Shown here: piece by piece, positions 19,497-37,172 of the stretch
How the letters are laid out: every line of letters begins with the position of its first letter
Numbering within the stretch: the stretch's first letter is position 1
NCBI GenBank assembly: GCA_028289195.1
Contig: JANQQR010000015.1
Span: 1 to 64,000 of the forward strand
Source: Phycisphaerales bacterium
GTDB taxonomy: Bacteria; Planctomycetota; Phycisphaerae; Phycisphaerales; UBA1924
DNA: 64,000 nt
Direction: 5' to 3'
The notes under the pieces: generated by a model
Told to the model about the DNA's origin: nothing
Databases searched by the model: none
The model's input: the letters and a program-made list of their open reading frames with translations, nothing else
Position numbers and translations under genes: made by a program

Positions 19497-20486
19497 CTAC
19501 TCGGCGCCGTGGAGCCTGCCGTTCATCCCGCCTTCGGGGGCCGAGCCCCCGAGCGCGCGGACGATCGTCGTGATGTTGTGATCGATCATGCCGACGTAGG
19601 TGCCCTCGTACGTCCCGGCCGGGCCCATCGCGTCGGAGAACAACTCGCCCCCGACACTCACGGTGTGCCCGCGCGACTCGGCACCGGCGATGAGGCTCTT
19701 GACGTTCCGATCGGTCACTGTCGTCTCGACGAAGACCGCCGGGACGCGCCGGTCGACGAGGGTGTCGACGATCGAGCCGATGGTCGCGAGGCTGGCCTCG
19801 GACTCGGTCGAGATGCCCTGGATGCCGATCACCTCGAGCTGATATCGATCTGCGAGATAATTGAACGCGTCGTGGGCCGTCACGAGGACCCGCGACCCGT
19901 CGGGGATCGTCGCGAGCGCCGATTCGGCGTACGAGTCGAGCGCCTCGAACTCAGCTCGGACTTCACCGGCGCGAGCGCGATACTCGCTCTCGTTCTCGGG
20001 ATCCAGCGCCGAGAGTTCGGCCAGAACGACATCGATGGTGAGCGCCCAGCGCGCCGGGTCCATCCAGACGTGCGGGTCGGCGTAGCCCTCGTTGCCGTCG
20101 GGATACAGGAGCGCTTCTTCGTCGATCCGCTGGGTGATGGCCACGACGGGCTTGCCGCGGGCGACGGCGATGAGCGCGTCGGTCATCTTTCCTTCGAGAT
20201 GCAGCCCGTTGTAGAAGATGATGTCGGCCCGGCGCATGGCTGCCATGTCGGACCGCGTCGCCCGATAGAGATGCGGATCGACGCCTTCGGCGATGATGGT
20301 GCGGACCTCTACCCGATCGCCGCCGACGGCGCGCACGACATCGGCGATCATCGCGGTGGTCGCGACGGCTTCGAGGGTGTCATCCCCGGTCTGGGCTCGC
20401 GCACAGAGCGGCAAGCACGACAGGGAAACGACCGAGGCAACGGCGAGGCTGACAAAGCGATTGAGCACTGGAACACTCCGAATCAT
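19497..20486 (-). CDS. Metal ABC transporter substrate-binding protein (TroA/PsaA type)
   Basis: Exported binding protein of the cluster 9 (TroA-like) family, 329 residues. Signal peptide is residues 1-31, ending LCARAQ. The metal site can be read as His in DPHLY, His in DPHVWMD, an acidic residue near GISTESEAS, and Asp in YVGMIDHN, the His-His-Glu-Asp pattern of manganese/iron binders. There is no histidine-rich loop of the ZnuA kind, so Mn or Fe is more likely than Zn; this is an inference. It is the first gene of the four-gene importer operon, and an inverted repeat covers its predicted -10 element, so transcription is probably metal-regulated. Confidence 0.92.
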   Translation of the reverse strand: MIRSVPVLNRFVSLAVASVVSLSCLPLCARAQTGDDTLEAVATTAMIADVVRAVGGDRVEVRTIIAEGVDPHLYRATRSDMAAMRRADIIFYNGLHLEGKMTDALIAVARGKPVVAITQRIDEEALLYPDGNEGYADPHVWMDPARWALTIDVVLAELSALDPENESEYRARAGEVRAEFEALDSYAESALATIPDGSRVLVTAHDAFNYLADRYQLEVIGIQGISTESEASLATIGSIVDTLVDRRVPAVFVETTVTDRNVKSLIAGAESRGHTVSVGGELFSDAMGPAGTYEGTYVGMIDHNITTIVRALGGSAPEGGMNGRLHGAE

Positions 20487-24283: not shown

Positions 24284-27200
24284 TCAGCGCGTCGTCCCGG
24301 TCCTGTCCGTCACGTAGAGCGGCAGGTAGCGGTAGTACACCTCGAGCATCAGGCAGCAGATCGCCGTCTGGTAGAGACGACCGCCGATGCGTGCCCAGCG
24401 ATCGACCGGGTCCCAGCTGCCGCGGGCGCCGTCGTCCTGGCGCTGGTTCTCGACCAGCACTTCGACGAGCCGCCCGTTCCATCGATCCCACGCCGGGCCC
24501 GAGTGCTGGAACATGGCGAGCGTCGCGTAATACCAGTAGTAGGTGCTGGCGGCTTCGTCTTCCCAGTCGGGAAGGTCGGCGAGCACGAACTGCGCGCTCT
24601 GGCTCATACCCACCGCGCTCGGGCCCTCGCCCAGCAGCTGACGAACGAACATCGCCTCGGCCGTCATCGACACGGTGTTGCGCCGGCCCGGCTTGTAGGC
24701 GAACAGGCCGGGACGCTCCGGGCGTGAGACTACGTCGAGCCACTCCCGCGCGCCGCGGAGGGCACTCTCGGGAACCTCCAGGCCGCCGCGCGCGGCGCTG
24801 ACGAGCGCCATCACCTGCCAGCCGAGCACGGACGTGTCGCCGACCTGGCCGGGCTCGTAGCGCCAGCCGCCCTCGTCGGTGTTCCGCGCCCGGGCGATGA
24901 AGTCGATGGCGCGCTGCGTCGGCCCCTGCAGGCGCGGGTCGCGCGTCATGCCGAACGCCTCGGCAAGCGCGATCGTGCCGATGCCCTGGCTGTAGAGCGT
25001 CTCTCCGTGGCGGAGGTCGCCGTCGGGCTCGACCCGCGATACGAGCCAGCCGATGCCGCGCTCGACGGTTTCCTGGTACTCGCTCTCGCCGAGGTGCGTG
25101 TGGCCGGCGCCAAGGAAGCACAGCAGGGCCAGGCCGGTCATGGCCGAGTCGAACTCGTACGCCGCGGAGTCGCCGCCGGCCGTTGCCTCGATGTCGCGCC
25201 CGGTCCAGCGCCCGTCGTCCTGCTGCTGGCCGGCGATCCACTCCAACGCGAGCGTCACGGCGACCTCGGTCTCCTCGCTCCCGCCGCCGGACTCGACGAG
25301 TTCCTGACGGGCCTCCTCGTCCCGCTGCGGGTACAGCTCTTCGATCGGCTCTGTCGGGAGTTCGACCGATGGAAGTGCGAGCGCCAGCGCCGGCGCTTCG
25401 AGCTGCGCCCGGTCGGCGAGGCGCTCGGCGAGCACGGGGCTTGTCTCTGTGAGCGTGACGTCCGGAGCCGCGGTCCGATCGAACGCGTCCGATTGCGTAA
25501 GCGAGCCGATCGCAGACTCCGTGCGCGCGTCGGTCGCGCTCTGGGTCTGTGCCAGGGCGCCCGGGCTCTCGCGGCGGAGCGCCGATGGGTCGCCCGACGT
25601 CGGGAGCGACGGGCCGGACGTCTCGTCGGACCAGGCGGTGCTCGTGGACGCGGGCAGCGCGAGGTCGGGCAGGCCAACCGAGCCGGGGTCGATCGCGAAC
25701 TCGCCCGATGCCGCGCTGGGCGAGGGCGCCGCCATCGCGGCTTCGCGGGTGTCTGTCGGCATCGCAAGCGTCGACTGGGCCGTCGAGGCATCGTTCATCG
25801 CCACAGCCAGCTGCGCGCCGGCATCGCTGGGTCGCTCGCTCGCGGCTCCGGCGGCGGAATCGCTGCGCAGGCGCTGCGACTCCTGGGCGAGCGCCCGCGG
25901 GCGGGCGGCATCGGCCGATTCTTCTGAGCGCTGCTGGGCGCCGCCGGAGGGCATCGCCAGCCCGGCGAGCGCCGGCGACTCGATCGCCAGTTCGAACCCG
26001 CTCGACGAGCGCGAAGGGCTCGACGGCGAGGCCTGCGTTGCGCTCTCACGAGACTGAACCGCCGCGGCCAGCGTTGATTCCGAAGCCACCGTCGCGGCGC
26101 CGGGATCCAGTTCCATCGCGACGCTCGACGCCTGCGCGCCATCCGTGCTCGGCGCTCCTGCACGAGGGCCGGAAGCGGAAGCGAAGCTCTCAGCGCTGAG
26201 CGCAGCAGGCGCCGATTCCGAAGCGGCCCGCTGAGACTCGGGCATCGCGGCCACCGTCGGCACCACCGAATCGATCCGCTGGGTGGTGCCGGGGGCATTC
26301 GGGGAAGAACTGGGCATCGCGGCGCTGCTGGATGACGCGCGCGACGGTTCGGCGCGCACGAGGCGCGACGTGTCGATGGAGGCCGGGACGTCTGTCGCCA
26401 CGCCGAGGTCCGCGGTGCTCGATGATGTCGAAGGCGCGTCGGTCGGATTGGTCGGACGCGCAGCGAGCGCGCTGTCCGTCGCTTGGGGCTGCGCCGAAGA
26501 CGCCTCGCTCGAGGCGCGTCGTCTGGCGATTGCCGGCGAAGCGACACTCACCGGCACCTCGTTCATGGCCACCGTCGGCGTCTCGTCGCTCGCGGGGAGC
26601 CCGCTGGGGCGGCTCGCTCTAGAGTCGGTCGTTTCCAGCGTCTGCATCGCCCGGGAATCGCCGGCATCAACGCCGACAGCCGACGGGGTCTCCAGACGTG
26701 CGAGCGCTCCGGTCGCGGGCGCGAACCGCGGCGTCGCTTCGCTCGAGCGCACGCCCGGGGCGTCGACAGGCTCGGGCTGCGAACGCACGGTCTCCGCACG
26801 GGCCGGAGCCGGAGCGGTCTCTGGGGCGTCGAGCGATTCGACATCGAGTTGCTGGGCGCTCACATCCGGCTGCTGCGCCATGCGGGTCGCCTCAGGCACC
26901 TGGGCGTCGGCCTCCGCCTGGCGCTGGTCGGCTTGGCGCATCGCCGAGCGATCAACGAACTCGGGCTCGGTCTGCGGGAGGATGTCGGCGTTCGTCTGCG
27001 CCGCGCTGGTTGCCGCGGCGGCTTCGGTCTGCGCGAGGCGCGAATCTGCGAGTTCGCGAGACTCGATCACCTGGCTCGATTCCTCGGTTGCCTCGGCAGG
27101 GGCATCGGCCAGGGTCTGCACCGGCTGCGCCTCGCTGGCATCGATCTGCTCGGCCCGCTCGGACTCGAGCAGTTCCGTCTGGAGATCGGGCTCCGCTTCC

Positions 27201-28723
27201 GAAGCCCGGTCTTCGGATTGCATCGCGCTGTCTGCGAGCGTCACGGCCTGGGCCGACATCTGCGCGAGTTGGGCTTCGGCGGGGTCGACGGGGTCGGGCT
27301 CCCGGCGCGTCGAGTCGTCCGGCATCCGCGGATCGAAGTCCAGCTGAGTGAGCCCGCCGCGGAGCTGCCCCGCGATGTCCCCGCCCACGGAACGCGAGAT
27401 CAGCGCGACCTTGGTGCCCCCGGATCGATCGAGGAACTCGCCGATCGACGAGGACACCTGCCAGGCAGCGAGCAGCGCGAGCAGCAACGCGTGGAGGATG
27501 AGCGAGAGGATCAGGCAGCGTGCCAGCAGGCCCAGCGTCCCCCACCGGTCTTTCAACCCGCGGCTCTTGAGCGCGCTCAGCAGCAGCAACAAGAGAAGCA
27601 ACAGCAGGAGGAGCCAGAGCAGCCACGGCCCGAGCAACGCCCACAGCGCGGCCCAGTCGACCTTGAGCCGCTCTCCGTCCAGCGTGCGGAACACCTCGCG
27701 CGATCGGCTGACGTAGATGTCATAGTCGAGCGCCTCGGCAACCTCGCCCTCGGCCAGGCGGTCGGACGAGAAGTGGAGCTCGAACCCCTCCATCCCGAGC
27801 GCCGGATCCAGCTCGTTTGCGATCGAGTTGACCTGCGCCCCGAGATTCTGAGGCTCCTGGAAGGAGCCGGCCAGGAGGCGCGAGCGATAGAGATCGAACG
27901 CCCCGAAGCCTCCGTCGCGATCGGACGCGAAGTACAGGAAGTCTCCCGCGGGGCTGAAGTCCGGCGCGCCCTCGTTGGCGTCCGAGTTCAGCGCGTCGAT
28001 CGCGCTCGTCTGCGCGAACACGCCGCCTTCGTCGAGTTCGGCGCGATACAGGTCGTAATCGTTCTGGAAGAGGTCTTCGCGGAGCGTCGCCGGCCAGCGA
28101 CCGTCTTCGTCGGGGCCGCCCGATGCAGGATCGGTCGGCCGGTTTGATGCGAAGTACAGCGTGCGCCCGTCTGTCGAGAGCGCCGGGCCGTAGTCGTGGA
28201 GCGGGCTGTTGACGCCGGGGCCAAGATTCTCGGGCGCCGACCAGCCTTCAGTCGTGCGTTCGGCACGCCACAGGTCGTAGCCGCCCAGGCCGCCGGTCCG
28301 GTTCGAATAGAACAGGATGGTCGAGCCGTCTGACGAGAGCTCGGGCCCGAGATCGTCGGCGTCCGAGTTGACCGCCTCGAGGGGGACCGCTTCGCCCCAC
28401 CACCCTTCGGGCGTGCGCGTCGAGATGAATATCTCCGCGTTCTCGCCGGCCCTGCCTCGGACGAAGACGAGGGTGTCGCCCCGCGGGCTGACGCGCGGCT
28501 CGTAATCGTCGCGCAGCGAGTTAATTGCCGGCTTGAGCGCTTCGGGAGTGGTCCAGATCACCTCGCGCGACGCGGCTTCGGATGCCGGCACGCGGATCGA
28601 CTCGCCGTCGGTCAGCACCCATGCGTCGCGCTTGTGCAGCGTCCAGGCGATCGCGCCGATCACCGACGTGACCGTGATCACCAGCAGAACGAGGAGGCTG
28701 AATGTCCGGAGCGTCTTGAGCAT
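24284..28723 (-). CDS. Giant PD40 propeller / TonB-like TM / spacer / alpha-alpha toroid protein
   Basis: A 1479-residue envelope protein immediately after ExbB and ExbD. In order: a membrane helix (8-29); five PD40 propeller repeats like those of TolB (about 65-340, e.g. PRVSPRGDTLVF, PDFSPAGDFLYF); a second helix with twelve consecutive leucines (371-382); a short basic loop KSRGLKDR; a third helix (about 398-420); a Ser/Ala/Glu/Thr-rich spacer of ~725 residues; and a C-terminal terpenoid-cyclase/prenyltransferase-like alpha/alpha toroid (about 1153-1470) with QW-like motifs QQQDDGRW, DEGGWRY and QRQDDGARGSW. The third helix has S407-x3-H411-x6-L418, the spacing of TonB's energy-coupling helix. 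No cyclase DxDD motif is seen, so the toroid is probably a binding domain. I infer that ExbBD energises this protein. Confidence 0.85.
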   Translation of the reverse strand: MLKTLRTFSLLVLLVITVTSVIGAIAWTLHKRDAWVLTDGESIRVPASEAASREVIWTTPEALKPAINSLRDDYEPRVSPRGDTLVFVRGRAGENAEIFISTRTPEGWWGEAVPLEAVNSDADDLGPELSSDGSTILFYSNRTGGLGGYDLWRAERTTEGWSAPENLGPGVNSPLHDYGPALSTDGRTLYFASNRPTDPASGGPDEDGRWPATLREDLFQNDYDLYRAELDEGGVFAQTSAIDALNSDANEGAPDFSPAGDFLYFASDRDGGFGAFDLYRSRLLAGSFQEPQNLGAQVNSIANELDPALGMEGFELHFSSDRLAEGEVAEALDYDIYVSRSREVFRTLDGERLKVDWAALWALLGPWLLWLLLLLLLLLLLLSALKSRGLKDRWGTLGLLARCLILSLILHALLLALLAAWQVSSSIGEFLDRSGGTKVALISRSVGGDIAGQLRGGLTQLDFDPRMPDDSTRREPDPVDPAEAQLAQMSAQAVTLADSAMQSEDRASEAEPDLQTELLESERAEQIDASEAQPVQTLADAPAEATEESSQVIESRELADSRLAQTEAAAATSAAQTNADILPQTEPEFVDRSAMRQADQRQAEADAQVPEATRMAQQPDVSAQQLDVESLDAPETAPAPARAETVRSQPEPVDAPGVRSSEATPRFAPATGALARLETPSAVGVDAGDSRAMQTLETTDSRASRPSGLPASDETPTVAMNEVPVSVASPAIARRRASSEASSAQPQATDSALAARPTNPTDAPSTSSSTADLGVATDVPASIDTSRLVRAEPSRASSSSAAMPSSSPNAPGTTQRIDSVVPTVAAMPESQRAASESAPAALSAESFASASGPRAGAPSTDGAQASSVAMELDPGAATVASESTLAAAVQSRESATQASPSSPSRSSSGFELAIESPALAGLAMPSGGAQQRSEESADAARPRALAQESQRLRSDSAAGAASERPSDAGAQLAVAMNDASTAQSTLAMPTDTREAAMAAPSPSAASGEFAIDPGSVGLPDLALPASTSTAWSDETSGPSLPTSGDPSALRRESPGALAQTQSATDARTESAIGSLTQSDAFDRTAAPDVTLTETSPVLAERLADRAQLEAPALALALPSVELPTEPIEELYPQRDEEARQELVESGGGSEETEVAVTLALEWIAGQQQDDGRWTGRDIEATAGGDSAAYEFDSAMTGLALLCFLGAGHTHLGESEYQETVERGIGWLVSRVEPDGDLRHGETLYSQGIGTIALAEAFGMTRDPRLQGPTQRAIDFIARARNTDEGGWRYEPGQVGDTSVLGWQVMALVSAARGGLEVPESALRGAREWLDVVSRPERPGLFAYKPGRRNTVSMTAEAMFVRQLLGEGPSAVGMSQSAQFVLADLPDWEDEAASTYYWYYATLAMFQHSGPAWDRWNGRLVEVLVENQRQDDGARGSWDPVDRWARIGGRLYQTAICCLMLEVYYRYLPLYVTDRTGTTR

Positions 28724-28753
28724 CGTGCTCGACTCTCTCGATCTCAGGCGGTG

Positions 28754-29173
28754 CTAGCGGGCCGGGACGGTGTCGAGGTACGGCTCCTGGACACCGGCCC
28801 CCTTGATGATGTCGAGCGCCTGGGCGATCGACGCGTAGGACGCGTCCCGATCGCCGCGCACGGTGACCTTCTGGTCGGGGTTCTGCTCCACGGCCTGGTT
28901 GACGATCGAGCGCAGATCCTCCACGCCCAGCGTCTGGCCGGCGACGATGAACCGTCCCTCCGCATCGATGTTCACGACCAACTCCCGGAGCGACATGCTG
29001 ATCGGCCCGCCGGACTGTGCCTCGGGCAGCGTGATCTGCATCTCGCGCTCGGTCTGCTGGAAGGTCGTCGCGGCGAGGAAGAAGATGAGCAGGAGGAAGA
29101 CCATGTCGATGATCGGCGTCAGCTCGATCGTCGCTCCCTGACCGGACGGGCCGGTGATCGATTTCATCAGCAT
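28754..29173 (-). CDS. exbD: ExbD/TolR family proton-channel component
   Basis: A 139-residue protein with a single N-terminal membrane helix (about 20-40) preceded by the conserved LTPIIDMVF, whose Asp23 corresponds to the proton-carrying aspartate of ExbD/TolR. The C-terminal periplasmic domain, with VTVRGDRDASYASIAQAL, is the usual ExbD fold. Together with ExbB it would convert the proton gradient into movement of a transmembrane partner. AGGAG sits nine bases before the ATG. The gene lies 18 bases after exbB and 30 before the giant propeller/toroid gene, so the three are almost certainly one transcript. Confidence 0.93.
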   Translation of the reverse strand: MLMKSITGPSGQGATIELTPIIDMVFLLLIFFLAATTFQQTEREMQITLPEAQSGGPISMSLRELVVNIDAEGRFIVAGQTLGVEDLRSIVNQAVEQNPDQKVTVRGDRDASYASIAQALDIIKGAGVQEPYLDTVPAR

Positions 29174-29191
29174 CGTGTGCGCTCCTGTTGC

Positions 29192-30055
29192 CTACGAGGC
29201 CACGACCTTGGGCGAGGCTTCACCCGTCGAGTTCGAACGGGCGTCCTCCGAATCCGATCGGGCGAGGCGTGCGACCGGCGAAGGCTCGACGTCGACCAGT
29301 TGCTCCTCGATGAACCGGATGCACACGCGGTCCATCTCGGCGACGAGCCGCTCGATCTTGGCGCTGATCCAGTGATAGAAGATGAGCGCCGGGATCGCCA
29401 CGAGCAAGCCGGCGGCGGTCGTCACCATGGCCTCGTATATGCCGGTGGCGAGCAGTTCGGTCTTGCCCAGGGCTTCGGCAGACTCCGAGACGGTCTGGAA
29501 CGCCTTGATCATGCCGAAGATCGTCCCGACCAGCCCGAGCAGCGGAGCGACGGCGGCGATCACCGACAGGATTCGGGTGTTCTTGCGGAGCTTGAACACC
29601 TCCCACTCGCCTGCCTCCTGCACGGCCCGCTCGATCGCCTCGACCGGCCGACCGATCTTGCGGATACCCGCGGAGCACACGCTGGCGATCGGGCTCTTGT
29701 TCTTCTTGCAGTACTCCAGCGCCCGGGTGCGATCGTGCCCGGACGAATCCATGAGCTTCTCGAGCTCCTTGATAAACGCCGGTGGGATGATGTTGCGCCG
29801 CCGGAGCGTGATCAGGCGCTCGGCGACAACGGCGAGCATGATGAACGAGGCGATCCCGATGGGGATCATCATCACGCCACCCTTGAGCACGAAATCCCAC
29901 ACAGACTGCACGCTTCCCGCGTTAGCCGCGAGCTGGTCCGCCGCCTGCTGGGCAGTCGATGCGCCAGCGGGTTCGGCGGCTGCGCCGCCGCCACCGTTCT
30001 GAACGTCCTGTCCGATCACGAGCGTCGCGATCATGTATTCGAGTGCTTCACGCAC
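29192..30055 (-). CDS. exbB: ExbB/TolQ/MotA family proton channel protein
   Basis: Three-helix membrane protein of 287 residues. The first helix is around residues 57-80 (GGVMMIPIGIASFIMLAV), a cytoplasmic loop follows, and the last two helices carry the family signature LLGLVGTIFGMIKAF and MVTTAAGLLVAIPALIFYHW. The GTG start at 30055 is backed by AAGGAG six bases upstream; the first ATG is seven codons later. The N-terminal part up to the first helix is longer than in E. coli ExbB and is Gly/Ala/Gln-rich. It is the channel for the ExbD protein encoded next and for the giant energy-transducing protein. Confidence 0.94.
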   Translation of the reverse strand: MREALEYMIATLVIGQDVQNGGGGAAAEPAGASTAQQAADQLAANAGSVQSVWDFVLKGGVMMIPIGIASFIMLAVVAERLITLRRRNIIPPAFIKELEKLMDSSGHDRTRALEYCKKNKSPIASVCSAGIRKIGRPVEAIERAVQEAGEWEVFKLRKNTRILSVIAAVAPLLGLVGTIFGMIKAFQTVSESAEALGKTELLATGIYEAMVTTAAGLLVAIPALIFYHWISAKIERLVAEMDRVCIRFIEEQLVDVEPSPVARLARSDSEDARSNSTGEASPKVVAS

Positions 30056-30124
30056 GGCTCACTCCTTGTCATCCCCCACGGATTCCGGGACTGCGCCCTT
30101 GATCTCTCTATGACGCGCTCCCGC

Positions 30125-33100
30125 TCAGCGGCCCGGCAGCGTGCTGGATTGGCGGATCGCCTCGAGACGTTCCTGCGCCGGAACGGCCCAGTCGCTGTCG
30201 GCGAACCGCTCGGTCACCTGCTCGAACTGCCGGCGAGCGTCGTCGAACTGGCCGAGCGCCTCGAAGCAGCGTCCGGCCTCGTAGAGCGCTGCCGCGCTCC
30301 ACTCGGGGTAGGCGTAGAGGATGTCGACCTCCAGCAGCTCGCGGATCGCGTCCTCGTACCTCTCATCGGCGTAGAGGCACTCACCGATCTGGAACTGGGC
30401 ACGCGCCGCGCTCGGGCCGTCGTGCCCGTCGACCACGCGCTGGTAGGCATCGATCGCCTCCGGCCTTCGCCCCATGTTCTCCAGCGCCCACCCGATGCCG
30501 AACTGCGCCTGGAACCAGACGTCGCTGTCTGCGAAGCCATCCATGTACGCGCTGAAGGCTTCCAGAGCCCTGTCCCAACGCTGGAGCGTCGAACTCGCCT
30601 CGCCCAGGCGCAGCAGTCCGGGGCCGTAGCTCTCGTCCGAAGCGCCGATCTCGACGACACGCTCGAGGTGATCGGCGGCGCGCGAATGCTGGTTGAGCTT
30701 GAGGTGCGACTCGCCGCACATCAGCGACGCAGAGCCCAGCACGTCACTCTCCGGGTACTGGCTGTGGAACTCGTCGAGAAGATCGACGACGTCCGAGTAG
30801 CGCCCGGCTTCAAGGCGACAGGCCGCCAAGCGGTAGGTCGCCCGCTCGGCCAGAGACGGGTCCATCTCCGCCGATGCCGACTGCCCGATCGAGAGCGTCT
30901 CCTCGAGCATCGGCGCCGCGTCCGCGTGGTTGCCGGCCCGCATCTCGATGCCGGCGAGATCGAGCAGCGCGTACGCGCGGAGGGAAGCATCGGGCTCGGT
31001 GGCCAGCAGGTCGCGGTACGCCTCGCCCGCCGCGCTGTCGTTGCCCTGCTCGAGCAGGCACCAGGCCTTCTCGTACAGCGCCGACTGTCGCAGCGGCATC
31101 TCGATCGACTCGAGACCGTCGGACTCAAGCGATTCCATCGCTGCGAGCGACTCGTCGATCCGATCGGCCCTCGCCAGCGCGATGACCCGGTACGCCTGGG
31201 CGGGCGCAGCGCTCGGATGGTCGGGGTGCTCTTCTGCCACACCGGCGAGGACGCCGGCGGCGTCGACGTATTCGCGTGCGGCAAGCAGCGCCCGGCCGCG
31301 CTCGTAGAGCGCCTGGACCTCGAGCTCCTCGCCGCCCGAGGCGCCCGCTCGTCCGAACCACTCGGCGGCCTGGCTGAAGTCGCCGTTGCGCTGTGAGATG
31401 ACGCCAAGATGGTTCATGGCGTGGGGCGCGAAGCGGGAGTCCTCGCCCTGGGCGAGAACAACGGTGAACGAGGCTTCGGCGTCGTCCCAGCGCTCGAGTT
31501 CGACCAGGGCCTGGCCGCGCTCGAATTCGGCTTGTAGGCGGTGCGTGCTGTCTTCGAATCCCGCGAGCAGCGCGTCGTAGTCCTCGATCGCGCCCTCGGG
31601 GTTGCCCTGACGCTGCCGGGCCAGACCCCGCTTGATGAGAGCGTCGTCAGCCGCGGGCTGATCGAGGCCGAACGCCAGGTACTCGCTGAGCGTGGACTCG
31701 GCGGCGGCCCACTGCCCGTCTTCGAACAGACCGTCACCGAGCGCGAGCAGCGCGGGGCGGAACACCTCGGGGGTCTCGGCGCCGCGGGTGACGCTCTCGA
31801 GAAGAGGCTGGGCCAGCTCGAATCGATCCTGGCGATAGCGTGACATGCCCAGACGGAAAGTCGCCCGATCGCGGAACTCGTCGGCGTCCTCCGTCTCGAG
31901 GAGCGCCGTGTACGCGTCCGCCGCCTCATCGAACCGGCCGGACAGGAAGTGGTTCTCGCCGAGCAGGAACATGGCCGGCGCCGCGAGCCGGTGATCGTCG
32001 AAGCGATCGAGGAATCGCCGGCACAGCTCGAGGCTCTCGTCGTACCGCTCGAGCTGGTGCTCGATGCTCGCCTGGGTGTAGAGCGCGTCGGGCGCCAGCT
32101 CGTGGTCCGGGTACTCGCTGCGGAACAGCTCAAGGGCGACAATGGCGCTCTCGTCCGCTCCGGCCCGGGTGAGGGCGATCGCGCGGTCGTAGGTCATCTC
32201 GCTCAGCAGTTCGCTGTCGGGGTAGCGCTGGATCGCGCTGCTCAGGGCGTCGGCTGCCTCGGCGTTGCCTCCTTCGCGCAGATCGCACTTGGCCAGCCAG
32301 TACGCCGCGTCGTCGCGGAGCCCCTCGTCTTCGCTCTGCGCCACGGCCTCGAGCAGCGGGCGGGCGTCGTCGTATTCGTTCTCATCAAAGTAGATCCGGG
32401 CCCGCTGCAGACGAGCCGCATCGGCGAGTTGATCGTCGGGGTAGCCCTCGAGCATCCGATCGAGCAACAGCGCGGCCTCGTCACCGGCGCCCGCCTGGTG
32501 CAGGAGTTGTCCGAGACCCACGAGTGCTTCCGGCAGGTACGCATCGATCGAGCGGTCGACCACACGGCGGTACTGCGCGACGGCCCGCTGCGCTTCGCCG
32601 CCCTGGTGCAGCGATCGCGCCAGAAGCAAGGTGGCCTGCGCGCTGTGCTGGCCTTCGGGGTACCGCTCGAGCATCGACTCGAACCGGGCCGACGCCTCGT
32701 CGACGTTGCCCCTCGCCAGTTCGGCCATCCCCCCGAAGAGCTCGGTTCTTTCGCGCAGAGGGCTGTCGGGCCAGCCGTCGATCAGGTCGTCGGCGGCCTC
32801 GACCGACGCGTCGAAGCGTCCGCCCCGATAGAGCGCCTCGGCGCGGAGCGCGGCGCCGTCGTCCGCAGAGTCGTGGTCGGGATAGCGGGCAACGAGCGTC
32901 GCAAAGCTGGCTGCCGCCTCGTCGAACTTCGCCGTCGCCAGATCGCAGTGGCCGCGGAGCAACTGGACCTCGGCCCCGAACTGGAAGTCTTCGAGATCGG
33001 CGAGCGAATCGAACTGGGACATCGCCTCGCCGTAGCGCCCGAGCCGGAACAGGCACACCCCGAGGCCATAGCGAGCCGCGGGAACGTCGCCGTGCTCCGG

Positions 33101-33310
33101 CGAAGCCTGGAGGAACTTCTGATACTCGGGGATCGCCAGCTCGTAGAGCCCGCGATTCAGGAGGCCGTTGGCGGTGAGGTACGCCCGGTTGTCGTTCGGG
33201 CTCCCCGGGCCGGACGCCTGCGCGTGCCCCGCGCTGAGCGCCAGGAGCGCTGCTCCTGCGAGTGATCCGATCCGTGCTCGCCTCCGCGTTGCTTCGATCC
33301 GTCGGTCCAT
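30125..33310 (-). CDS. Exported tetratricopeptide-repeat protein (CpoB/YbgF-like layout)
   Basis: A protein of 1061 residues that is nearly all TPR helices after a signal peptide (IGSLAGAALLALSAGHAQAS). Repeats recur about every 34-37 residues with forms such as LYELAIPEYQKFLQASP, YDESLELCRRFLDRF and FDDARRQFEQVTERFADS. Similar repeats are found in CpoB/YbgF of Tol systems and in outer-membrane assembly factors. The first residue is uncertain: the frame opens with TTG at 33340, but ATG 33310 has GGGAG at proper spacing and leads directly into the signal peptide. It is followed after 69 bases by exbB, exbD and the giant toroid protein. Confidence 0.85.
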   Translation of the reverse strand: MDRRIEATRRRARIGSLAGAALLALSAGHAQASGPGSPNDNRAYLTANGLLNRGLYELAIPEYQKFLQASPEHGDVPAARYGLGVCLFRLGRYGEAMSQFDSLADLEDFQFGAEVQLLRGHCDLATAKFDEAAASFATLVARYPDHDSADDGAALRAEALYRGGRFDASVEAADDLIDGWPDSPLRERTELFGGMAELARGNVDEASARFESMLERYPEGQHSAQATLLLARSLHQGGEAQRAVAQYRRVVDRSIDAYLPEALVGLGQLLHQAGAGDEAALLLDRMLEGYPDDQLADAARLQRARIYFDENEYDDARPLLEAVAQSEDEGLRDDAAYWLAKCDLREGGNAEAADALSSAIQRYPDSELLSEMTYDRAIALTRAGADESAIVALELFRSEYPDHELAPDALYTQASIEHQLERYDESLELCRRFLDRFDDHRLAAPAMFLLGENHFLSGRFDEAADAYTALLETEDADEFRDRATFRLGMSRYRQDRFELAQPLLESVTRGAETPEVFRPALLALGDGLFEDGQWAAAESTLSEYLAFGLDQPAADDALIKRGLARQRQGNPEGAIEDYDALLAGFEDSTHRLQAEFERGQALVELERWDDAEASFTVVLAQGEDSRFAPHAMNHLGVISQRNGDFSQAAEWFGRAGASGGEELEVQALYERGRALLAAREYVDAAGVLAGVAEEHPDHPSAAPAQAYRVIALARADRIDESLAAMESLESDGLESIEMPLRQSALYEKAWCLLEQGNDSAAGEAYRDLLATEPDASLRAYALLDLAGIEMRAGNHADAAPMLEETLSIGQSASAEMDPSLAERATYRLAACRLEAGRYSDVVDLLDEFHSQYPESDVLGSASLMCGESHLKLNQHSRAADHLERVVEIGASDESYGPGLLRLGEASSTLQRWDRALEAFSAYMDGFADSDVWFQAQFGIGWALENMGRRPEAIDAYQRVVDGHDGPSAARAQFQIGECLYADERYEDAIRELLEVDILYAYPEWSAAALYEAGRCFEALGQFDDARRQFEQVTERFADSDWAVPAQERLEAIRQSSTLPGR

Positions 33311-33552: not shown

Positions 33553-36500
33553 TTACACGTCGGCGTCTTCTGTCTCTTCTTCGAGGTCTTGACGAGCCTC
33601 TTCGAGCTCCTCTTCGAGCTCTTCCATCAGCTCTTGGATGGTCTCTTCGTCTTCCTCGATCTCTTCAGCGATCTCCTCGATCGCCTCCATGATCTCCTCG
33701 ATCTTCTCTTCGACGGCCTCGGCCTCGTCTTCCATGGCCTCGACCGCTTCGGCGATCGCCTCCGCCTGTGCCTCTGCAGCCTCGGCTTCACCCTCGGCGG
33801 CCTCGGCCTCGGCCCACATCATCTCGGCCTGGCGGGCGATCTCCTCGGCCTGCGCTTCGATCTCAGCGACGGCGGACTCGATCTCGGCGCGCACGTCTTC
33901 GGAGATCTCCTCTTCGTCTTCCCAGGCCTCTTCGCGCATCTCATCGGCGTGCTCGCGCATCTCGTCGGCCTGCTCCATCAGGGCCTCGCGCTGCTCTTCG
34001 ATCTGCTCGATCCGGGCCTCGAACTCGTCTGAGAAGACGACGCTCTGCTCGGCCTCGGCGGCGAACGCCAGGGCCTGAGCCTCGATCTCGCCGGCCATCG
34101 CCTCGACGTCGGCGACCATCGCTTCGAGCTCACGCATGAGCTCCGCCTTGGCGTTCTGCGCCTCGCGATGGATCTCGATCTCCATCCGGTAGGCGCTGGA
34201 CAGTTCTTCGCTGCGACGCGGCGCGCAGAGGTCGTGATGGCGGTGCTGGTTCTGGTGGCGATGGATCTCGCGGTAGCGCTGGCGCATCTCCTGCTCGCGA
34301 TTGCGGAGCTCGGAGCGGATCTCGTTGCGATGCCGGTGCACATCGGCCTGGCGCTCGGCCTTCTCGCGATGCAGGTGGGCGTGGCGCTCGGCCTGACGCC
34401 GCGCTCGCTCGGCCTGACGGGAGGCCTCGTCGCGCGAGCGCTGGGCCCGACGCTCTGCCCGCTGGCGATCGGCCCGGGCGCGATCGCCACCCGAGTTCTT
34501 GTGCAGGTTCTCGAACTGGCCGCGATTGGTGAACTCCACCGCGCCGCCGTCTTCGGTCGTGACGCTGACTTCGCCGGGTGCGATCAGCTCGGCGAAGGCG
34601 CGGAACACGCGGTGCTGCGGGCGGGTGCCGTACACGGTCAGCGTGCCGTCGCCGGGGCGGACGAGCACGGGAACATCCGAGCGGACCATGAGCTGCGTCA
34701 GCGCACCGAGCCGCCCCTCCGGCAGCGTGTACACGAGCCCGAGGGTGTCAGAGGACGGCGACTGCGCACGCGGCGCCCGCGGAGCGCTCGGCGCCGCCGG
34801 AGTCTTGGGGGCCTTGGCGGCCTTCTCCTTAGACTTCTTCTCGACCATCTCGCGGATGCGGCCTTCGAGGTCGGCCAGGCGCTGCTCGGCCTCGCGCACC
34901 GCCTCTTCTGTGTCGGCGGTCTCACGCTCGCGCATGTGGCGCTCGAACGTGCTCTCACCCTCGTCCTCTTCGTGGTCCTTGTGGGGATGCACCCCGATCG
35001 GGCCGGCGAGCATCAGGCCGTTGGGGCCGATGACCCGCGGAGCAAGGACCACGCTCGGCGCCGGGGCCGGAGTCGGCACCGGGGCGGCCACGAGAACGGG
35101 CTCGGGCTTGGGCGTCGCCTGGCAGTCGTCCTTGTCCTTCGGCGGGCATGCCATTCCCGGGAGCACGAACGCGCCCGTGGCAGCGATCGCGATCGCCGCG
35201 ACCAGGCCCATCGGCGTCGTCCGGGGCTTGATTCGTTCCGTCATCACCATCGTCAGTCTCCTTGCGAATCTCCTCGCCTTTGGCGAGGTCACCCCGAGCG
35301 CGAGCTCCGGCGCGTTGGCGCCGCGCACGCTGAGGTAGTCCTTGGTCTTGAGCAGCGCCTCGGCGTACGCACGCCGGGAGCTGGGAAGCACATTCATGAC
35401 CCACGCGTCGCAGCAGAGATCGGCCTCTTCGCGCAGACGCCGGCGGGCCCACCACACCACCGGGTGCCACCAGTAGAGGATGCCGATGACGAGCTGCAGC
35501 CAGCAGACCCAGTGGTCACGGCGCAGCAGGTGGGCGAGCTCGTGGACCACGATCGCGCGCCTGCCGTCAAGGTCCATCTCGTTCCAGAGCGCGCGGGGGA
35601 TCAGCAGGCGCGATCGCCATCCGACGACGATCATCGGGCTGATGCGCCCATCGGTCAGGTAGGCGCGGGGGGACTCGGGAAGCTCGAGCAGGCGCGAGCA
35701 GTCGTCGACGAGCAGTTGGATCGACTCGGGAGCGGGCGCTGCCGAGACCATGAGCTTCGATCTGCGCGCCACCCTCGCCAGCACTACGAGTCCGAGGAGC
35801 ACGACACCAGCGATCCACAGCGCCGGGGGAGGCGATGGGAGCGCTGCGATGGCGTCGCGCACATCGACGAACGGGCTGGCCCAGTGGGCCGCCGGAACGG
35901 TCTCGGGTTCATCTGCATCACCGGCGGCATCCGGTTCCTCGGCCGAGGATCCGGCCGGTGCCGGCGACTCTGCGGCTTCGGTCTCGGGTTGCTCAGTCGC
36001 TGTTGCCGGCCGCGAAGGCGCACTCGACCGCGACACGGCCTCCGGAGGAGTGACCCGTGATTCGCGAACCGCCGGTCGCCGTTCGTTGGCGAGAGGTTCG
36101 GCAGCGGAGCGCCAGCGCGGCGAAACCGACCGCGAAGGCGCGCTCGCTGCCGAGTTCTCACGGGATCGCTGGCTCTGCAATCCCGCGGAGGAGGATGAAC
36201 GATCCGAAGAAGCTCGCGAATAGGCACTCCGCTCGGCTCGACGCAGTCGTTCGAGCGATTCGTTGCGGGAGGATGTCTGGAACGGGCTGCGGTGCGCCGT
36301 TCGCACGCGAGTGGGCGTGCGCCGTTCGAGCGCGCGGTCAAGCTCGGTTTCCGGTGCCCGCCAGTGAGGCAGCGCCGGCTCTGGGGACTGCACGACGGTC
36401 TGGGCAACCGGCTCGGCCTTCTCGGCCAGGATGGAGTCGGGTTTGTCGGGTCGCTCGGATGGCGCCGAGTCGTCTCGGACCAGATCGTCCGGCTCAGCAT

Positions 36501-36738
36501 CTTCGAACGAGATCGCCTCGCCGAAGATCGCGAACGGGTTCGACTGCCGGGGCATGCCCAGGATCAGCGCGAAGGTCGGGGTCAGGAACGAGACGAGCAC
36601 CACCAGCCACAGCACGTGGCGAGTGGCCGGGCTCTTGACGAACCCCTTGCACGCGGCCCACACCGCGAGCGAGAGCGGGATCGCGGCCAGCGATGTGGCC
36701 CAGAGATGCTCGAAGTACACCGGCGAGAAATCCATCAT
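33553..36738 (-). CDS. M56 (BlaR1-like) membrane metallopeptidase with giant charged coiled coil
   Basis: Antirepressor-type membrane peptidase of 1061 residues. Membrane helices surround a cytoplasmic catalytic loop with VVHELAHLLRRDH (H399, E400, H403), followed by WWHPVVWWARRRLREEADLCCD, the standard M56 core. BlaR1-type proteins sense a signal outside the cell and then cleave their BlaI-type repressor. After the last helix (GLVAAIAIAATGAFVLPG) there is no penicillin-binding sensor domain; instead there are a small domain, an Arg/Glu-rich helix, a histidine cluster HRHQNQHRHHD (about 825-836), and a strongly acidic Glu/Ala coiled coil to the C-terminus. GGAGG lies just before the ATG. The repressor gene precedes it by 17 bases. 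Confidence 0.88.
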   Translation of the reverse strand: MMDFSPVYFEHLWATSLAAIPLSLAVWAACKGFVKSPATRHVLWLVVLVSFLTPTFALILGMPRQSNPFAIFGEAISFEDAEPDDLVRDDSAPSERPDKPDSILAEKAEPVAQTVVQSPEPALPHWRAPETELDRALERRTPTRVRTAHRSPFQTSSRNESLERLRRAERSAYSRASSDRSSSSAGLQSQRSRENSAASAPSRSVSPRWRSAAEPLANERRPAVRESRVTPPEAVSRSSAPSRPATATEQPETEAAESPAPAGSSAEEPDAAGDADEPETVPAAHWASPFVDVRDAIAALPSPPPALWIAGVVLLGLVVLARVARRSKLMVSAAPAPESIQLLVDDCSRLLELPESPRAYLTDGRISPMIVVGWRSRLLIPRALWNEMDLDGRRAIVVHELAHLLRRDHWVCWLQLVIGILYWWHPVVWWARRRLREEADLCCDAWVMNVLPSSRRAYAEALLKTKDYLSVRGANAPELALGVTSPKARRFARRLTMVMTERIKPRTTPMGLVAAIAIAATGAFVLPGMACPPKDKDDCQATPKPEPVLVAAPVPTPAPAPSVVLAPRVIGPNGLMLAGPIGVHPHKDHEEDEGESTFERHMRERETADTEEAVREAEQRLADLEGRIREMVEKKSKEKAAKAPKTPAAPSAPRAPRAQSPSSDTLGLVYTLPEGRLGALTQLMVRSDVPVLVRPGDGTLTVYGTRPQHRVFRAFAELIAPGEVSVTTEDGGAVEFTNRGQFENLHKNSGGDRARADRQRAERRAQRSRDEASRQAERARRQAERHAHLHREKAERQADVHRHRNEIRSELRNREQEMRQRYREIHRHQNQHRHHDLCAPRRSEELSSAYRMEIEIHREAQNAKAELMRELEAMVADVEAMAGEIEAQALAFAAEAEQSVVFSDEFEARIEQIEEQREALMEQADEMREHADEMREEAWEDEEEISEDVRAEIESAVAEIEAQAEEIARQAEMMWAEAEAAEGEAEAAEAQAEAIAEAVEAMEDEAEAVEEKIEEIMEAIEEIAEEIEEDEETIQELMEELEEELEEARQDLEEETEDADV

Positions 36739-36755: not shown

Positions 36756-37172
36756 TCAGCTCGTCCTTGAGTCCAGCCGCTCGATGAGCACGCGAAGCTC
36801 ATCGATCTCCTCCGGCGAGAAATCCTCGTTCTCCATGAGTTGCAGCGCCATGGCGCCGGGGGCGCCATCGAACATCTGCTGCATCAGCGAACGCAGTCGC
36901 GCCTTGGCGATCTTGTTGCGGCTGACCTTGGCCTTGTAGACGTACGCCAGGCCCGACTTGTTGCTGACCACGAAGCCCTTCTGCTCGAGCCGGGTCAGGA
37001 AAGTCAGCACCGTCGTGTACGCCAGGGCCTTCTCGCGCTTCTCGTTGAGGCGGTCCAGCACCTCGCGCACGGTCGCCTCCCCCCGGTCCCACAGGGCCTT
37101 GAGCACCTCGAGCTCGGCGTCGCCGAGTTCGGGGTCCTTCTTGGCCGGCTTCTTCGAGTTCTTCAGGGGCAT
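36756..37172 (-). CDS. BlaI/MecI-family transcriptional repressor
   Basis: Winged-helix repressor of 138 residues: LGDAELEVLKALWDRGEATVREV opens the DNA-binding domain, with AYTTVLTFLTRLEQKGFV as the recognition region, and the C-terminal helices (KARLRSLMQQMFDG) form the dimer and the site normally cut by the M56 partner. The two genes are adjacent on the same strand, which is the usual signal-transduction pair. Two dyads in the 195-base divergent spacer are likely binding sites, so it probably represses its own operon. Whether the inducer is a beta-lactam cannot be told; the sensor half of the partner is unlike BlaR1. Confidence 0.92.
   Translation of the reverse strand: MPLKNSKKPAKKDPELGDAELEVLKALWDRGEATVREVLDRLNEKREKALAYTTVLTFLTRLEQKGFVVSNKSGLAYVYKAKVSRNKIAKARLRSLMQQMFDGAPGAMALQLMENEDFSPEEIDELRVLIERLDSRTS

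Follow-up and report, generated by a model that had tools for sequence, protein, structure and literature searches.

The window analysed here, a 64,000-nucleotide stretch of a Phycisphaerales genome (contig JANQQR010000015.1), carries a cassette of four genes on its minus strand, in the order TPR protein (1061 aa), ExbB, ExbD and a giant protein (1479 aa). The gaps between them are 69, 18 and 30 bp, which reproduces the single-strand, closely spaced arrangement described in the initial annotation of this DNA. The features of the cassette, of the giant protein and of the two genes upstream are as follows.

30125..33310, minus strand: TPR protein, 1061 aa counted from the ATG; by inspection a secreted protein that has a signal peptide but lacks a lipobox
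29192..30055, minus strand: ExbB/TolQ-like motor subunit, 287 aa, with Thr178 and Thr213 (MotA_ExbB, PF01618, 4.7e-31; PDB match to TolQ)
28754..29173, minus strand: ExbD/TolR-like motor subunit, 139 aa, with the proton-carrying Asp23 (ExbD, PF02472, 1.1e-27)
24284..28723, minus strand: giant putative transducer, 1479 aa, comprising TM1, TolB-like propeller, TM2, TM3 (SxxxH), spacer and toroid
28628..28720, minus strand: TM helix 1, residues 2-32 (hydropathy and AF2 helix)
27680..28561, minus strand: TolB-type beta-propeller, residues 55-348, predicted periplasmic (PD40, 3.8e-27; AF2; Foldseek TolB, 2.1e-12)
27566..27655, minus strand: TM helix 2, residues 357-386 (hydropathy, AF2)
27425..27529, minus strand: TM helix 3, residues 399-433, TonB/TolA-like, with S407 and H411 (H411 conservation; pattern scan)
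25349..27424, minus strand: A/S/P/E-rich spacer, residues 434-1125, predicted disordered (composition)
24287..25348, minus strand: alpha/alpha toroid domain, residues 1126-1479 (AF2; remote squalene-hopene cyclase match; Foldseek)
33553..36738, minus strand: BlaR1-like membrane peptidase (M56) whose tail is a long, charged coiled coil (PF05569, 8.8e-32)
36756..37172, minus strand: BlaI-type repressor (PF03965, 1.5e-31)

The product of the TPR gene matches many TPR families (best 1.2e-68) and also the tol_pal_ybgF model; it had been likened to CpoB, an identification that is too narrow, since being a large TPR protein does not single out CpoB. Directly upstream of this gene lies the BlaI/BlaR1-like pair, which occupies the same position in both order-level relatives examined (G278 and G368). 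These genes are probable regulators of the cassette, and the pair may be tied to envelope sensing. Further downstream, at a distance of a few kb from the cassette (window positions 19497-20486), is a gene for a ZnuA-type zinc-binding protein; the close relatives L077 (9959-10864) and L072 have one there too.

Each motor subunit can be aligned with solved structures of its kind (TolQ/ExbB or TolR/ExbD), and each scores higher against the TolQ/TolR models than against the ExbB/ExbD ones. The pore threonines of ExbB, Thr178 and Thr213, are kept in 61/62 and 60/62 homologues, respectively, and the proton-carrying aspartate of ExbD in all 64 of 64. With the motor residues kept and the TolQ/TolR models scoring above their ExbB/ExbD counterparts, the earlier assignment of a TolQ/R-type motor stands.

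The giant protein has a low-complexity spacer of ~690 residues. GC3 ranges from 0.74 to 0.95 across the whole frame and stays coding-type through the spacer, so we regard the giant as one gene and its spacer as coding; homologues keep an open spacer as well, of about 107 to 1208 residues. An AF2 model of the N-terminal part, built with an alignment of homologues as input, reaches a pLDDT of 80, with the propeller mostly above 90. The claim of a TolB-type propeller is borne out by fold, since the best 17 PDB matches in Foldseek are all TolB (17/17, top E 2.1e-12). By sequence, the closest NCBIfam models are those of CHU_0125 and PorE (2e-39 and 7e-33), not TolB. The helix count and the positively charged loop between TM2 and TM3 suggest that propeller, spacer and toroid are all periplasmic.

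The third helix (C-LILS-LIL-H-ALLLALLAAW) places Ser407 and His411 as in the S-x-x-x-H of TonB and TolA, in which the SHLS motif and the histidine are motor-docking elements (PMC12204202). H411 is nearly invariant among 27 homologues, in keeping with the TonB/TolA-type character first ascribed to this helix. A pattern scan for a [S/A/G]xxxH helix hit 80 toroid ORFs of the non-redundant set, the hit in L128 being spurious. Among ExbBD-linked proteins the histidine was found in the last helix in 58/67, against 6/60 for the first helix. The nine exceptions comprise five helix-picking errors for which the pattern scan recovered the His helix (L051, L054, L087, L090, L091), one truncated protein (L138) and three tandem propeller-toroid proteins with an N-terminal helix only. 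The helix was also present in 19 of 20 further loci hand-chosen from largely complete genomes. It is thus a constant feature, occurring in nearly every toroid relative including the shorter, propeller-less ones, and because it is constant while the propeller is not, we take motor, His helix and toroid as the core of the family. A D-box-like strand, of the kind that serves ExbD binding (PMC10907165), follows the helix in 10/80 proteins versus 3.0+/-1.7 in shuffled sequences, with the giant's TKVALIS failing the strict pattern; as a sequence pattern this is only suggestive of an ExbD-binding strand in the toroid family.

AF2, again with an alignment of homologues, predicts the C-terminal domain to be an alpha/alpha toroid with high confidence (pLDDT 92.9, pTM 0.92). 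Pfam yields a weak match, under the family cut-off, to SQHop_cyclase_C (1.9e-4), and the closest PDB sequence match by profile is squalene-hopene cyclase (1.3e-15). The Foldseek matches are alpha/alpha toroids with various functions (TM about 0.6, 10-19% identity), among them the sugar-active GH76 mannanases and sugar epimerases, and include no specific structural relative. Conservation centres on the invariant D1296, E1255 and E1461 together with Tyr/Trp-rich residues, and QW-like repeats occur in 47/51 toroids. None of the catalytic or thioester motifs known from toroids is conserved: the DxDD catalytic pattern occurs in 2/51 and the thioester motif in 0/51. Five relatives (L051, L071, L073, L074, L078) extend ~230 residues beyond the toroid, the tail of L051 being carboxypeptidase-regulatory-like by inspection.

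A toroid search in which five or fewer candidates per genome were scored gave matches in 327 of 392 Planctomycetota genomes. Within the window's own order, strong matches were found in 3/31 sampled genomes, its own included; the two strong orthologues (55%) are G278, from the same family, and G368, from the same order. As the cassette is patchy there, it is not essential to its order. A scan of GTDB genomes gave 80 loci, distributed over Phycisphaerales, Pirellulales, other Planctomycetia, a Sumerlaeia bin, Opitutia/Opitutales and Kiritimatiellia. The locus samples are weighted towards higher-scoring relatives and were not drawn at random. Among 100 non-redundant toroid ORFs, 77 came with 3.5 kb or more of upstream sequence, and ExbB and ExbD lay upstream on the same strand in 57 of these 77. 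The linkage held for every propeller+toroid ORF with enough upstream DNA (28/28, a count that includes a few second members of tandem protein pairs behind one motor) and for 29/49 propeller-less ones. By simple arithmetic from the seven MotA/ExbB places in the 3.63 Mb genome, a random gene would have a MotA/ExbB gene within 6 kb upstream on its own strand in ~0.6% of cases, against the 28/28 observed. The initial annotation had allowed that homologues of the giant might mostly occur without ExbB/D; the neighbourhood survey found the propeller+toroid proteins linked to them wherever this was testable.

The order TPR-ExbB-ExbD-toroid is kept across Planctomycetota, Verrucomicrobiota and Kiritimatiellota; as a unit, the cassette is old and conserved. 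At the 20 hand-chosen loci ExbD lies directly upstream in 12, some of them without ExbB, and many Planctomycetia have ExbD without ExbB or a toroid protein standing alone. Toroid proteins at seven loci (L053, L061, L066, L107, L121, L147, L149) have an AWL-S-LVFH-type helix, a spacer of ~110 residues and no ExbBD neighbours, and may share a motor encoded elsewhere. A quick tree with SH-aLRT support places the window in a supported 16-row set (SH-aLRT 99) of nearly all propeller-bearing proteins from Phycisphaerae-type bins, and the proteins with a propeller fall into more than one clade. Because propeller-less homologues keep the same operon, the TolB part is accessory: the propeller is an optional attribute of several clades and not what defines the family. 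Several variants of the layout were seen. At three Opitutia/Kiritimatiellia loci (L126, L134, L144) a second propeller+toroid protein, lacking the His helix, precedes the giant, its toroid (281-606) enclosed by the PD40 propeller region (about 82-734); in L091 the giant and such a second protein seem to be fused; and L080, from a planctomycete bin, has two complete TPR-ExbB-ExbD-giant cassettes in tandem.

The order of the genes and of the domains, the motor residues, the His helix and the conserved linkage found here, together with the modelled toroid fold, lead us to propose, with a probability of roughly 0.7, that the cassette encodes a Ton/Tol-type force transducer that spans the envelope, is driven by the PMF and bears a new, toroid tip. 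Topology, docking, force transmission, target and physiological role might then be as follows. ExbB, presumably in five copies, and ExbD, in two, would build the motor, and the giant would dock on it with its third TM helix, through the SxxxH face, as TonB and TolA do. The long disordered spacer would span the periplasm, and the C-terminal toroid, as the working tip, would take hold of a peptidoglycan or outer-membrane partner. Flanked by TM1 and TM2, the TolB-like propeller, an accessory of the long-form subfamily, would stay near the inner membrane, and the TPR protein could act in the periplasm as a scaffold or partner. Expression would probably be set by the BlaI/BlaR1-like pair according to the state of the envelope.

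A more specific reading, which we consider rather unlikely though the best of the alternatives, is that the cassette is the equivalent of Tol, driving outer-membrane constriction and stabilisation in division, with TolB and TolA merged and the toroid replacing both TolA domain III and Pal. The TolB fold of the propeller, the TolQ/TolR-like motor and the tol_pal_ybgF match of the TPR protein all fit this idea, as does the scarcity of TolB_N, which reaches threshold in 11/392 Planctomycetota genomes, all weakly, compared with the 327/392 that have the toroid. The Tol-Pal set of Planctomycetes was found to be largely reduced in a 2022 survey (PMC8871954). In the genome studied here (94% complete), profile searches gave no match to TolB_N, TonB_C or the TonB-receptor plug, a missing profile match not being proof of absence, so the regular tolQRAB-pal set that might have been present elsewhere was not encountered, no TolB_N having been found. 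Speaking against a Tol equivalent, no OmpA/Pal protein is linked to the cassette: the three OmpA-domain proteins of the genome lie elsewhere, one being MotB-like and two being lipoproteins by inspection, near Mla-type genes. Moreover, the propeller is missing from many conserved cassettes and is nearer in sequence to CHU_0125/PorE than to TolB, and the cassette is patchy in its order. The view that all Tol functions appear here was overstated: neither the C-terminal fold of TolA or TonB nor the N-domain of TolB was found, and no Pal is linked to the cassette. What survives of the 'Tol-like machine' is its anatomy, namely the motor, the His helix, the TolB-type propeller and the linkage, with the TolB part an accessory without which homologues keep the operon, and with a Tol function only putative.

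The sugar-active enzymes among the fold matches, together with the conserved aromatic and acidic residues of the toroid, would suit PMF-driven uptake or handling of glycans or other polymers, with the toroid as a polysaccharide-binding or -processing tip. We think this unlikely, since the fold matches are generic, the cassette showed no glycan-degradation genes and the genome has no match to the plug domain of TonB-dependent receptors. Less probable still is that the toroid is a periplasmic enzyme, terpene/squalene-cyclase-like or other, merely tethered near ExbBD with no transmission of force; its closest PDB sequence match is indeed squalene-hopene cyclase, but the DxDD and thioester counts are those given above, and the His helix, which a mere tether would not need, is kept in distant members. 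A coincidental neighbourhood of unrelated genes, to which the toroid proteins without ExbBD neighbours might be thought to point, is refuted by the 28/28 linkage of the full architecture across three phyla.

If the cassette is indeed a force transducer, it matters in a genome in which profiles recognise none of the usual Ton or Tol components. The toroid, a widespread tip that one subfamily carries together with a fused TolB-like propeller, would be a further type of tip for such transducers, and a 'prenyltransferase-repeat' protein family would gain a concrete, testable mechanism. How planctomycetes with reduced Tol-Pal (PMC8871954) energise their outer envelope would likewise become testable. 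We can imagine, while leaning against so broad a claim, that toroid-tipped transducers form a third great ExbBD/TolQR-driven branch beside Ton and Tol, replacing the missing Tol-Pal in much of Planctomycetota.

TolA and TonB have long been the best-known carriers of proton-motor force to the outer membrane, with vWA tips added in 2025. The cassette belongs to none of the Tol-Pal, Ton and vWA classes. It resembles Tol-Pal in its TolQ/R-type motor with conserved Thr and Asp, SHLS-type His helix, long spacer, TolB-type propeller fold and TPR protein, but three defining features of Tol-Pal are lacking, as the C-terminus is a toroid instead of TolA domain III and neither TolB_N nor a linked Pal was found; it also differs in combining propeller and transducer in one chain. 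With the Ton system (ExbBD-TonB) it shares the motor subunits, the SxxxH helix and a Pro-containing spacer, whereas it has a toroid tip and its genome lacks matches to TonB_C and the TBDT plug domain. The CHU_0125/PorE family of TPR-propeller-OmpA lipoproteins provides the NCBIfam models closest to the giant's propeller, yet the giant has neither the OmpA peptidoglycan-binding domain nor lipidation, and its propeller sits between TM helices. The alpha/alpha fold and QW-like repeats are common to the cassette toroid and to squalene-hopene cyclase/prenyltransferase-type toroids, from which it differs in having no DxDD acid motif and in being membrane-tethered via a motor-type helix.

Among described systems, the vWA force transducers (Williams-Jones et al., 2025) come closest; they consist of a TPR protein, a TolQ-like protein, a TolR-like pair and a protein with His helix, linker and vWA tip, and occur in the PVC group, Planctomycetes included (PMC12204202). 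At least one further ExbBD locus of the same genome looks like a transducer of this type: on C14 (L014, 5114-8925), ExbB-ExbD-ExbD accompany a His-helix protein with the helix VSLFIH and a VWA_3 match (9.7e-15). A similar set with a weak vWA match lies on C6 (L013, 7148-9871). A possible fourth motor set, on C24 (L017, 4065-5691), has a weak ExbB (1e-4, phmmer), an ORF that looks ExbD-like on inspection, and a 274-aa protein whose helix reads S-GAL-H. The statement in the initial annotation that no system with this layout had been described consequently holds for the toroid tip and not for the plan, which is known in vWA-tipped form with TPR, TolQ and TolR partners; the main text of that report (PMC12204202) has no mention of toroid, squalene or prenyl, and in the open-licence literature we found no description of a toroid or prenyltransferase linked with ExbB/ExbD in planctomycetes. 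TPR, TolQ-like and TolR-like neighbours, an SHLS/His TM helix, a linker and a globular tip are thus common to the cassette and the vWA transducers, the latter differing in their vWA tip and often in a pair of TolR-like genes, with no in-chain propeller described; the plan is shared, and only the C-terminal domain, here a toroid, is of another kind.
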